Below are positions 1,255-62,755 of a stretch of 64,000 nucleotides of DNA, piece by piece. Positions within the stretch are counted from its first letter, which is position 1. Every line of letters begins with the position of its first letter. A program made the position numbers and the translations under genes. The notes beneath the pieces are model-generated. The model did not search any database. It was given only the letters and a program-made list of their open reading frames with translations, and was not told where the DNA came from. The DNA is from Ursus arctos (lineage: Eukaryota; Chordata; Mammalia; Carnivora; Ursidae). The stretch spans positions 23,865,772 through 23,929,771 of the forward strand of contig NW_026622874.1 in the NCBI RefSeq assembly GCF_023065955.2, written 5' to 3'.

Positions 1255-2405
1255 AGTTTTAATTTTTTAATTTTTTATTATGTTATGTTAGTCACCGTAC
1301 AGTAAATCATTAGTTTTTGATGTAGTGTTCCGTGATTCATTGTTTGCGTATAACACCCAGTGCTCCATGCAATACGTGCCCTCCTTAATACCCATCACCG
1401 GCCTAGCCTTAATTCCCCACCCTCCTTCCCTCTGAAACCCTCAGTTTGTTTCCCAGAATCCATAGTCTCTTGTGGTTCATTCCCCCTTCTGATTACCCCC
1501 CCCATCATTCTTCCCTTCCTTCTCCTACCCATCTCCCTGCTATTTCTTATGTTCCACAAATGAGTGAAACCATATGATAATTGTCTTTCTCTGCTTGACT
1601 TATTTCACTTAGCATAATCTCCTCCTGACCCATCCATGTTGCTGCAAATGTTGGGTAATCGTTCTTTTTGATGGCTGAGTAATATTCCATTGTATATATG
1701 GACCACATCTTTATCCATTCATCTGTTGAAGGGCATCTCGGCTCCTTCCAGAGTTTAGCTATTGTGGACAATGCTGCTATGAACATTGGGGTACATATGG
1801 CCCTTCTCTTCACTACATCTGTATCTTTGGGGTAAATACCCAGTAGTGCAATTGCTGGATCATAAGGTAGCTCTATTTTTAACTTTTTGAGGGACCTCCA
1901 CACTGTTTTCCATAGTGGCTGTATCAGCTTGCATTCCCACCAAGAGTGTAAGAGGGTTCTCCTTTCTCCACATCCTCTCAAACATTTGTTGTTTTCGCCT
2001 TATTAACTTTTGCCATTCTCACTGGTATAAGTGGTATCTCAAGGTGGTTTTGATTTGAATTTCCCTGATGGCTAATGATTTTGAACATTTTTTCATGTGT
2101 GTGTTAGCCATTTGTATGTCTTCATTGGAAAAGTGTCTGTTCATATCTTCTGCCCATTTTTTGATTTGACTATTTGTTTCTCGTGTATTGAATTTGAGAA
2201 GTTCTTTATAGTTCTTGGATACCAGCCTTTTATCTGTAGTTTCATTTGCAAATATATTCTCCCATTCCGTGGGCTGCCTCTTAGTTTTTTTGACTGTTTC
2301 CTTGGCTGTGCAGAAGCTTTTTATCTTGATGAAGTCCCACAAGTTCATTTTTTCTTTTGTTTCCCTTGCCTTTGGAGACATGTCATGAAAGAAGTTGCTG
2401 TGGCC
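1255..2405 (-). mobile_element. LINE-1, 5'-truncated, antisense (ORF2 C-terminus plus 3' UTR)
   Basis: On the minus strand the order is ORF2 C-terminal coding (about 2405 down to 1547), 3' UTR (1545-1276, with the carnivore L1 block containing GAGCACTGGGTGTTATACGC) and an A-rich tail at 1255-1275. The translated remnant includes [55 protein letters not shown] and MEYYSAIKKNDYPTF, which are hallmarks of the region downstream of the reverse transcriptase. The frame shifts near 1980-2020, so no intact protein remains. The 5' end is truncated within ORF2. No clean target-site duplication was found. Confidence 0.95.
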
Positions 2406-5817: not shown

Positions 5818-6026
5818 TGGGGCACCTGGGTGGCTCAGTCGTTAAGTGTCTGCCTTTGGCTCAGGGCGTGATCCCGGCGTTCTGGGATCGAGCCCCACAT
5901 CAGGCTCCTCTGCTAGGAGCCTGCTTCTTCCTCTCCTACTCCCCCTGCTTGTGTTCCCTCTCTCACTGGCTGTCTCTCTCTCTCTCTCAAATGAATAAAC
6001 AAAATCTTAAAAAAAAAAAAAAAAAA
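5818..6026 (+). mobile_element. SINEC (Can-SINE), young subfamily, sense
   Basis: Head CACCTGGGTGGCTCAGTCG (A-box region) and B-box-like GGGATCGAGCCC, body with CACTGGCTGTCTCTCTC, then an A-rich tail with AATCTT and poly(A). A perfect 16-bp target-site duplication, AGGAGGGTCTAAGATA, sits at 5802-5817 and 6027-6042. Confidence 0.97.
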
Positions 6027-15974: not shown

Positions 15975-16797
15975 ACCAAACAACTGGGCGGGTACATTTT
16001 TTTTTTTTTTTTAATGTCTCAGTTGCGTAGTTCCGTGTAGTACAGCCTCACTGTCTCCTTATCGTGGTCGTCACCATTTGTCCTGTGTGGGTCTTAGGAG
16101 GGTCAAGACCACCTTTCCTTTTCCTACCTTAGTGAGAGATCAGAACCAGGTTGTGTCTGTAGAATGATTGATTTCCTCACACACAAAAACCACGGAAGTA
16201 TAAACAGTCATTATTATTTTCGCTGATGCCAACTTTTTGTGCAGGTTTTAATTTTGTCTTCATTTCAACCAAATCTGAGGTCTCCATGACTACAATAGAA
16301 GAACAGAAGGGAAAAGAATACTTCTGTCTCAGAACATCCTAAATGGCATTGTTTATTGTAAAATGTGGATATTTGAAAGGACGCCCACATTTTTAAAAGG
16401 TGTTAATGCTGTTCATATGGTGTTCTAAGCCAGGGACCCATTTTTATGTTCTAGTGTGGGTGATATGTGAACACATTGGGCAGATATATCAATAAAGACT
16501 CTAGAAACAGACTAGAGGTTTCATGATAGAATTCAGATGCAGCAAGATATGTTTATTTACTTAGCTTCTAGGGCAGGGTCTGGGCTCTCTGGGACCTGGG
16601 TAATAAGGTCAAGTATGGCCATAGATTGAGGTCCAAGTGGTTGTATGAGTTTAAATTCTGAACACCTGAGAAAAAACTCCAGGAAAAACTGTCATGTTTT
16701 CATGCATCCTTCATGGGTGTATGGCTAGCCTTCCCAGCATGTTTAGAACATGACGATAAGTCAGCACCTTCTTTTCAAGAGGCAATGAGTGTGTTAG
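15975..16797. other. Unique sequence
   Basis: Starts with a T tract near 15999-16012. No repeat family or gene identified. Confidence 0.45.
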
Positions 16798-16811
16798 AGG
16801 CTTTGCAGTTA

Positions 16812-17240
16812 ATGGAAGAAATCAGAGAGGGAGACAAACCATGAGAGACTCTGGACTCCAGGAACCAAACTGAGGGTTACAGAAGGGAGGGGGCTGGGGA
16901 GCTGGGGTAACTGGGTGATGGGTATTAAGGGCACGTGTGGTGATGAGCACTGGGTGTTATACGCAACTACTGAATCATTGAACACTACACCAAAAACTAG
17001 TGATGTACTATATGCTGACTAACTGAACATAATAATAATAAAAAAGAGGTTCTTTAATTTGAATATGAAATTAATATTTTGATAGAGACTATATTTTAAA
17101 TACTGAAAGGAATCAGAAGTCTGGGGGATTTTTCTTCAAAGGACAGAGGAAGAAAGATTTGCAAGTATTGTTAGATGATGTGGTTAATGAAAAAAATAAA
17201 GAATTTTCTCATTGAGACCATTCCTGGGGGGAAAAAAAAA
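16812..17240 (+). mobile_element. LINE-1 3' end with 3' transduction, sense
   Basis: A 5'-truncated L1 3' UTR (16812-17046; ACAAACCATGAGAGACTC, GATGAGCACTGGGTGTTATACGC, AAAACTAGTGATGTACTATATG) reaches its own AATAAA at 17037-17042 but has no poly(A) there. It continues into about 185 bp of non-L1 sequence, then a second AATAAA at 17195-17200 and a poly(A) ending at 17240. The whole unit is bounded by a perfect 14-bp target-site duplication, AGGCTTTGCAGTTA, at 16798-16811 and 17241-17254, so both parts arrived in one insertion. It interrupts a MIR. Confidence 0.9.
17047..17231 (+). other. Transduced 3' flank carried by the L1
   Basis: Lies between the L1's bypassed poly(A) signal and the terminal poly(A), inside the target-site duplications. 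It is not L1 sequence that I recognise. It should be unique DNA copied from immediately downstream of the source L1 elsewhere in the genome. The hexamer at 17195-17200 is about 30 bp before the tail. Confidence 0.8.
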
Positions 17241-17445
17241 AGGCTTTGCAGTTAGATCTGATTCCTAGCTAAGCCACTTATCTGTGTGACTTGGACAAGT
17301 CCTTTGACATCTAGGCTTAGATTTCTTTACCTGTTAAATGGGAGTAACAAAGCCCACTTTCAGGATTATTGTACAGAAATAAGATAATATTTATAAAGTC
17401 CCTGGCATTTAAGAAAGTCTGTAATTGTTGCTCTTACTGTTGTTA
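17241..17445 (+). repeat. MIR, sense, interrupted by L1
   Basis: TGATTCCTAGCTAAGCCACTT, CTGTGTGACTTGGACAAGTCC and TTTACCTGTTAAATGGGAG follow MIR consensus order. Its 5' edge (about 16790-16811) lies left of the L1 insertion. Confidence 0.8.
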
Positions 17446-28063: not shown

Positions 28064-28479
28064 CTTTTTTTTTTTTTTTTTTGAGATTTTATTAATTTTT
28101 TTTTTAGATTTTATTTATTTATTTGACAGAGAAAGACAGCCAGTGAGAGAGGGAACACAAGTAGGGGGAGTGGGAGAGGAAGAAGCAGGCTCCCAGCGGA
28201 GGAGCCTGATGTGGGGCTCTATCCCAGAACGCCGGGATCACGCCCTGAGCCGAAGGCAGACACTTAATGACTGAGCCACCCAGGCGCCCCTGAGATTTTA
28301 TTAATTTATTTGAGATAGAGTGAGAGCACCAGTGTGGGGGGAGAGGGAGAAGCAGGCTCCCTGCTGAGTAGGGAGCCTGACCCCGGGGTGGGGTGGCTGG
28401 CTGGATCCCAGGACCCTGGGATCCATCACGACCTGAGCCGAAGGCAGATGCTTAACCAACTGAGCCACTCTGGTGCCCC
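28064..28479 (-). mobile_element. SINEC (outer, older), antisense, split
   Basis: Poly(T) with TGAGATTTTATTAATTT at 28064-28098, resuming at 28308 and ending with GCCACTCTGGTGCCCC at 28479. The A-rich tail region of this older copy was the target of a second SINE. Confidence 0.9.
28099..28290 (-). mobile_element. SINEC (inner, young), nested in another SINEC
   Basis: Complete young-subfamily copy (AGACAGCCAGTGAGAGA, GGATCACGCCCTGAGCC, CACCCAGGCGCCCC). A perfect 17-bp target-site duplication, TGAGATTTTATTAATTT, at 28082-28098 and 28291-28307 proves insertion into the tail of the outer copy in the same orientation. Confidence 0.96.
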
Positions 28480-28487
28480 TGAATTCC

Positions 28488-29410
28488 AGTGTAGTTAACA
28501 TATAGCATTCTATTAGTTTCAGGGGTACAGTGTAGTGATTCAACACTTCCATACATTAGTCAGTGCTCATCATGACAAGTGCACTCCTAATCCCTCTCAC
28601 CTATTTCCCCCATCTCCCCGCCCTCGTCCCCTCTGGTAACTACCCGTGTGTTCTCTGTAATTATGAGTCTGTTTCTTGGTTTGTGTCTTTTTATTTCCCT
28701 TTGTTCATTTATTTTGTTTCTTAAATTCCACATATGAGTGAAATCATATGGTATTTGTCTTTCTCTGACTTACTTCACTTAGCATTATACCCTCTAGCTC
28801 CACCCATGTTGTTGCAAATGGTAAGATTTCATTTTTTATAACTGAATAATAATCCATTATTAATATATATACATCTCACATCTTCTTTACCCAATTCATC
28901 TGTCACCGGACACTTGGACTGTTTCCATAATTTGGCTATTGAAAGTAATGCTGCAGTAGCATAGGGGTGTTTTTGTATTCTTTGTGTAAATACCCAGCAG
29001 TGTGATTACTGGATCATAGGGTAGCTCTATTTTTAACTTTTTGAGGAACCTCCATACTGCCTGCCACAGTGGCTGCCCCAGCTTGCCTTCCCACCAGCAG
29101 TGCACAAGGGTTCTTTTTCTCCACAACCTTGACGGTCCTTGTTGTTTCTTGTGTTTTTTATTTTAGCCATTCTCACAGGTGTGAGGTGATATCTCGTTAT
29201 AGTTTTGATTTGCTTTTCCCTGATGATGAGTGATAGTGAGCACCTTTTCATGTGTCTGTTGGCCATCTGGATGTCTTCTTTGGAGAAATGTATGTTCATG
29301 TCTTGTGCCCATTTTTAATTGGGTTATTTGTTTCTGAGGTGTTGAGTGGTATAATTCCTTTATATATTTTGGATACTCTTTCTCAGATATGTCATTTGCA
29401 AAAATGGAGA
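28488..29410 (-). mobile_element. LINE-1, 5'-truncated, antisense
   Basis: Minus-strand order: ORF2 C-terminal remnant (about 29410-28896; [41 protein letters not shown]), then 3' UTR to about 28488 (AGTTAACATATAGC, TTTCAGGGGTACAGTG in antisense). Reading frame is broken several times. Older than the 1.3-kb copy by divergence. The outer SINE abuts its 3' end. Confidence 0.92.
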
Positions 29411-38464: not shown

Positions 38465-38625
38465 GTCCCCCCCAGCTTTAGGGAGGTATAATTGACAAAT
38501 AAAATTGTGGTATGTTTAAAGTGTACAAATTGATGATCTGATACACAGATACATTGTGAAAGGCTCCCCCACCTCACGTTAACGAACATCCATTGGCACC
38601 TCACGGATTTTTTTTTTCCAATTAA
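38465..38625 (-). repeat. L1M-type 3'-UTR fragment, antisense (copy 1)
   Basis: GAGGTATAATTGACAAATAAA, GTTTAAAGTGTACAAATTG, then a CACGTTAACGAACATCCATT end. Typical antisense old L1 3' UTR. Confidence 0.75.
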
Positions 38626-38749
38626 AAATATATTTTTTATTATTATATACAACCCTGAAATAACATCATAGTTAAATTTTGATCACATTCTGGATTGTTT
38701 TCTTAGACATATTCTTAAAACAAGACTTGCTGGGGCAAGGGTGTTTTTG

Positions 38750-54766: not shown

Positions 54767-54967
54767 TTTTTTTTTTTTAAAGATTTTATTTATTTATTCG
54801 ACAGAGATAGAGACAGCCAGCGAGAGAGGGAACACAAGCAGGGGGAGTGGGAGAGGAAGAAGCAGGCTCATAGCGGAAGAGCCCGATGTGGGGCTCGATC
54901 CCATAACGCCGGGTTCACGCCCTGAGCCGAAGGCAGACGCTTAACCGCTGTGCCACCCAGGCGCCCC
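54767..54967 (-). mobile_element. SINEC, young subfamily, antisense
   Basis: Complete copy: AAAGATTTTATTTATTTATT, GACAGCCAGCGAGAGAGGG, GCTTAACCGCTGTGCCACC, GGCGCCCC. A perfect 16-bp target-site duplication, GGAGAGAGGGACCCTT, at 54751-54766 and 54968-54983. Confidence 0.97.
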
Positions 54968-61585: not shown

Positions 61586-62014
61586 AAGGAAGTCAAGCGA
61601 TGAATTTGGAGCATCTTGGTGAGGCAGGAGGCCTGTGCTTTCCAAGAAACCCACTGAACACTAGCTTACAGCCTTCCAAAGTTCTGAGGCGGCACGTCCC
61701 TTTGATGATACGTCACCCATGTATCACAGATGGCCCATCCGTAGCAGGTATGATGAATGGTGTTCGCAGTAAATAAACAAATACAGCAAGTGTGTTTTCT
61801 GGATAAGTTGAGGCTAAGGGTTAGAAAGAGATATGGGAGGTAGACACAGATTGAAAAGAAGCTTCTCTTTCTCCTTGCCAACCTGTCTGCATGGCTGTAA
61901 TTTTTACTTGCACCCAGGAATGTGGATGTGTTTAGCCTTTCTAGAAGGAGTGCCTGGAATAGATAAGACAGCTATTCCAAGCCCGCAGCAAAACATTTGA
62001 ATGAAAAGCAATTG
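61586..62014. other. Unique sequence
   Basis: Nothing recognised. Confidence 0.4.
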
Positions 62015-62225
62015 AATGGGCCTCCAACACCCACTCCGTGGCTTACCAGCTACGTGACCTCCAGCCAATTACATAACCTCTCTAAACCTCGCTTTCCTCA
62101 TCTGTAAAAGGGGAATGACAAGACAGTTGTTTTGAGAATTAAATGTGACTGTGGTTGCAAAATGCTAAGCATGATAACGTGACATAGAGGGAGCTCCATA
62201 AAGGAGAGTGATTTTAATTATTTTT
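62015..62225 (+). repeat. MIR, sense
   Basis: CTTACCAGCTACGTGACCTCC, AATTACATAACCTCTC, CTCATCTGTAAAAGGGGAATG, TTGAGAATTAAATGTGAC and AAAATGCTAAGC. Confidence 0.88.
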
Positions 62226-62548: not shown

Positions 62549-62755
62549 TTTTTTTTTTTTTTTTTTAAGATTTTTTATTTATTTATTTGACAGAGATAGA
62601 GACAGCCAGCGAGAGAGGGAACACAAGCAGGGGAAGTGGGAGAGGAAGAAGCAGGCTCATAGCAGAGGAGCCTGATGTGGGGCTCGATCCCACAACGCTG
62701 GGATCACGCCCTGAGCTGAAGGCAGGCGCTCAACCGCTGTGCCACCCAGGCGCCC
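62549..62755 (-). mobile_element. SINEC, young subfamily, antisense
   Basis: Very close to the copy at 54767-54967: GACAGCCAGCGAGAGAGGG, GAAGCAGGCTCATAGC, AACCGCTGTGCCACCC. A perfect 17-bp target-site duplication, CTCCCTACAGTGTTCTT, at 62532-62548 and 62756-62772. Confidence 0.97.

Follow-up and report, generated by a model that had tools for sequence, protein, structure and literature searches.

The locus at positions 16798-17254 raises a simple question: how did an L1 3' end come to be joined to a downstream stretch that is not L1-like, and what could this stretch tell about the origin of the copy? In the window, i.e., the whole 64-kb stretch of Ursus arctos DNA that was analysed, the L1 3' end sits upstream of this tail on the same strand. 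An earlier note had proposed an L1 insertion with a 3' transduction. We come to the same general reading and consider it probable, at roughly three in four, that the insertion is an ordinary 5'-truncated L1 3' transduction. The transduced tail would then be a tag for the parent L1 and, compared with the host genome, could name it.

Anatomy of the insertion

An insert of 429 bp lies between the two copies of a 14-bp direct repeat. It consists, in this order, of an L1-like part (16812-17045), a part that is not L1-like (17046-17231), and an A run starting at 17232. The individual features are:

16798..16811, + strand: target-site duplication, 5' copy, AGGCTTTGCAGTTA; 14/14 against 17241-17254
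16812..17045, + strand: 5'-truncated L1 3' end (3' UTR) as judged by similarity, terminal AATAATAATAAAAAA; 77% to 1265-1494 (-), 68% to 28492-28687 (-)
17037..17042, + strand: first poly(A) signal AATAAA, at the L1 end; pattern scan
17046..17231, + strand: non-L1 tail, probable 3'-transduced segment, 186 nt, 31% GC; matches only itself in the window
17195..17200, + strand: second poly(A) signal AATAAA, in the tail; pattern scan
17232..17240, + strand: poly(A) tail of the insertion; A run 17232-17241, the tenth A (17241) being common to the duplication
17241..17254, + strand: target-site duplication, 3' copy, also the start of detectable MIR; 14/14 repeat and MIR match
17240..17407, + strand: MIR SINE on the right-hand side of the target site; nhmmer with a working version of the MIR core, E 3.2e-12

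Two direct-repeat families were reported between 16600 and 17500. The 14-mer AGGCTTTGCAGTTA, at 16798-16811 and 17241-17254, is the longer one; the other is a 10-mer at 16676 and 16855. When pairs of random 40-nt stretches with the dinucleotide make-up of the region were simulated, 1 of 20,000 shared a 14-mer. With 14/14 identical positions and this low chance expectation, the perfect 14-bp target-site duplication that had been claimed around the whole unit is upheld.

A pattern scan of 16812-17254 for AATAAA or ATTAAA returned two signals, both AATAAA (17037-17042 and 17195-17200). Runs of at least five A are located at 16992-16996, 17040-17045, 17190-17196, and 17232-17241. The second AATAAA, followed by the last of these runs, terminates the unit as the earlier note had stated. 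Two details of that note required revision. The tail had been placed from 17047 on, with a length of about 185 bp; it extends from 17046 to 17231, i.e., 186 nt. Further, the L1 part was said to run past its own signal with no poly(A). This is overstated, because the A6 run at 17040-17045 overlaps the first signal. The order of L1 end, non-L1 tail, AATAAA, poly(A), and repeat is the one expected of a 3' transduction and supports this reading.

The L1 part and the tail

The L1 assignment of the upstream part was examined by comparisons within the window. By blastn, 16820-17045 is 77% identical to 1265-1494 (-) over 230 columns, and 16831-17021 is 68% identical to 28492-28687 (-) over 196 columns. 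A second aligner gave 180 identities, 46 mismatches, and 6 gaps against the closer comparator (16820-17045) and 137 identities, 58 mismatches, and 6 gaps against the other one (16831-17025). The closer comparator is also an L1 3' UTR by position, because it lies just downstream of an open frame at 1550-1999 (-) which matches residues 1127-1274 of human LINE-1 ORF2p (PDB) with an E of 2.8e-55. Pfam searches of 8 of the 25 listed reading frames, this ORF2 frame included, reported no family at E up to 0.01. Taken as a whole, 1265-1999 (-) is an L1 copy that comprises the C-terminal part of ORF2 along with its own 3' UTR. The matches to two L1-like 3' ends, one of them adjoining an ORF2p-like frame, confirm at the level of sequence similarity that 16812-17045 is a 5'-truncated L1 3' end, in line with what had been claimed. 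Positions 16812-16819 are outside the alignment, and we infer that they also belong to L1.

With the second aligner the match to the closer comparator ends at 17045. Beyond this point the comparator continues as an A-rich tail and then as unrelated sequence. That the alignment stops where the A-rich tail of the comparator starts supports a transduction. The focal L1 end carries AATAATAATAAAAAA and hence a short A run, which fits a parent with a short tail and supports the same reading.

When the tail was used alone as a query, neither blastn at E up to 0.01 nor nhmmer at E up to 10 found a full second copy in the 64-kb window; both matched the tail only to itself. When the whole 457-bp unit was the query, blastn returned a 39-nt match of 17032-17070 to 38609-38646 (79%, E 0.009). 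It comprises the A-rich end of the L1 part together with 25 nt from the start of the tail and is taken for a chance match in A-rich sequence. Since each of the six frames has at least two stops, the tail is not recognisably coding. From the end of its AATAAA (17195-17200) it is 31 nt to the final base other than A, which is close to the usual spacing. The possibility that the tail begins with a decayed third copy of the target sequence was rejected: 38.6% of 2000 shuffles reached the alignment score of 9.0.

The window contains further retroelements. At 28082-28307 (-) a tRNA-derived SINE is situated inside the A-rich tail of another one, bracketed by a 17-bp duplication, AAATTAATAAAATCTCA, at 28082-28098 and 28291-28307. 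A second 17-bp repeat in this neighbourhood is sequence common to both SINE bodies. An older L1 (28492-28687) has its 3' end directly against the outer SINE. One tRNA-derived SINE family, presumably of the carnivore type, has 13 matches (E up to 1e-5), a number that counts the query copy; examples are 5819-5991 and 54795-54967. Rfam, applied to the whole window at the gathering threshold, gave a single match: the tRNA called at 62669-62751 overlaps one of these SINE copies. Nothing was reported within the insertion.

Searches in other sequence collections were uninformative with respect to a mammalian parent. A blastn search of 16812-17240 against plasmids and phages gave no match. Exact patterns for the L1 3'-UTR, a 24-mer of the tail, and the presumed carnivore SINE each had 0 matches in viral contigs, and an exact L1 pattern had 0 in prokaryotic genome contigs.

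The target site

The earlier note had pictured the empty site as a continuous MIR. The right side bears this out: nhmmer detects MIR at 17240-17407 (E 3.2e-12), with a match that starts at the right-hand repeat copy. The left flank does not, as it adds 0 or 0.6 to the score, and MIR is thus clear on the right side only. With a first consensus version the joined flanks scored 66.2 versus 66.2 for the right flank alone. With a second version the scores were 50.6 versus 50.0, and 457 of 1000 shuffled left flanks reached 50.6. With the MIR core, the joined score was reached by 189 of 500 shuffles in which the left flank was shuffled together with the repeat. The core and both longer consensus sequences were working versions. 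The joined flanks also have a weak match across the join to 61891-62125 (nhmmer, E 0.0014, 12.8 bits). That region holds a MIR, and its 5' neighbourhood weakly resembles the focal left flank, a similarity which MIR alone does not explain.

A TTTT/AA-like nick site is expected of target-primed L1 insertion, as a preference and not as an absolute requirement. The first-strand nick site at this locus reads AAGCCT/CTAACA and does not conform. Either this is a mild argument against a canonical insertion, or the site has mutated since. A study in dogs quotes the L1 endonuclease site as 5'TTTTT/AA (PMC12458276).

Origin of the insertion and related systems

A single repeat pair surrounds the L1 end, the tail, and the poly(A). 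The simplest reading is one insertion event with read-through to the second poly(A) signal. Transcription of an L1 elsewhere in the genome would have run through the element's weak poly(A) signal into the adjoining DNA, with polyadenylation at the following signal. This read-through RNA may then have been copied at the present site by the L1 machinery through target-primed reverse transcription, primed from the poly(A) tail. An early stop of reverse transcription would explain why the product holds no more than 234 nt of L1 besides the 186-nt flank; it is bracketed by the 14-bp target-site duplication. We infer the order of events and that the tail lay directly 3' of the parent L1.

Four other origins deserve consideration. 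The parts may have arrived separately, i.e., a plain L1 insertion may have received a polyadenylated RNA fragment in its A-tail, in the same orientation and with an all-A, hence invisible, duplication. The SINE within a SINE tail at 28082-28307 illustrates that A-tails serve as targets in this very window, and a single tail could have been split into the internal A6 and the final A10; AAAAAAG is present at 17040-17046 and 17236-17242. That precedent left a clear 17-bp duplication, however, whereas a search for direct repeats of 5-14 nt at the two edges of the tail retrieved only A-runs (AAAAAAG at most). Further, this route takes two insertions and an RNA fragment of unusually short length. 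One event is favoured because the long repeat encloses everything and the edges of the tail share only A-runs; we rate two events as unlikely. Retroposition of a host mRNA or lncRNA with an old L1 fragment at its 3' end would leave the same structure from an RNA that was not an L1 transcript. The 5' truncation inside the L1 part conceals whatever lay upstream, and the L1 sequence amounts to only 234 nt. Such retrocopies are, in our judgement, to be expected more rarely than L1 read-through, and we hold this origin to be quite improbable.

Alternatively, the reverse transcriptase might have begun by copying an unrelated polyadenylated RNA and then switched to the 3' end of an L1 RNA as template, or the two RNAs might have been ligated. 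One report documents L1 sequences joined to other RNAs and also mentions Alu elements that integrate next to LINE-1 3' ends (PMC13174262). The U6 and mRNA cases described there place the foreign RNA 5' of L1, whereas in the unit at hand it is located 3', which leaves a chimera of this kind very improbable. Lastly, the tail might belong to the 3' UTR of an L1 subfamily. Since only two comparators were used, both from within the window and neither closely similar to the focal copy (68-77% alike), a more closely related subfamily could have a longer 3' UTR. Yet the first poly(A) signal and the A6 run coincide with the start of the A-rich tail of the closer comparator, and the whole tail is single-copy in 64 kb. 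To this explanation we give the least credence of all.

Returning to the preferred reading, an L1 3' transduction, its anatomy is that of human L1 3' transductions. Singly, the insertion is a routine event. A more far-reaching proposal is that the tail tags a source L1 which made a family of transduction-bearing copies in this carnivore lineage. If true, these copies could serve to date the activity of a single source element and to rank it; we regard the proposal as quite improbable. A source element active in this lineage, as raised in the earlier note, is a conjecture.

Reports that dogs carry many such insertions support the preferred reading. Mapped 3' transductions are described for 322 loci, with one and the same transduced sequence at ten of these (PMC13103737). 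Another study counts, as a per-sample average, 35.6 L1s with a 3' transduction out of 1,913 dimorphic ones, about 1.8% (PMC12458276). In one comparison from the latter study an L1 was within 50 bp of the source in only 3 of 27 cases. Since such parentless cases are reported in dogs, a single source place that lacks an L1 would also agree with a transduction. The same study gives one AAUAAA at the L1 end for human L1HS and two for dog L1_Cf (PMC12458276). A single AATAAA is present at the end of the focal L1.

In the 3' transductions of dogs and wolves an L1 3' end is followed by a non-L1 tail which comes from elsewhere and tags the parent (PMC12458276; PMC13103737), as is probably the case in the focal unit. 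Unlike the focal unit, they were aligned to a genomic source and stem from sets of variable L1 loci. The nearest alternative among known kinds is the LINE-1 chimera with other RNAs (PMC13174262). There, too, non-L1 sequence is fused to L1 inside one duplication, with the foreign RNA 5' of L1 in the U6 and mRNA cases. With 3' transductions catalogued by the hundreds in dogs (PMC13103737), the insertion described here would be one more case of a known kind.
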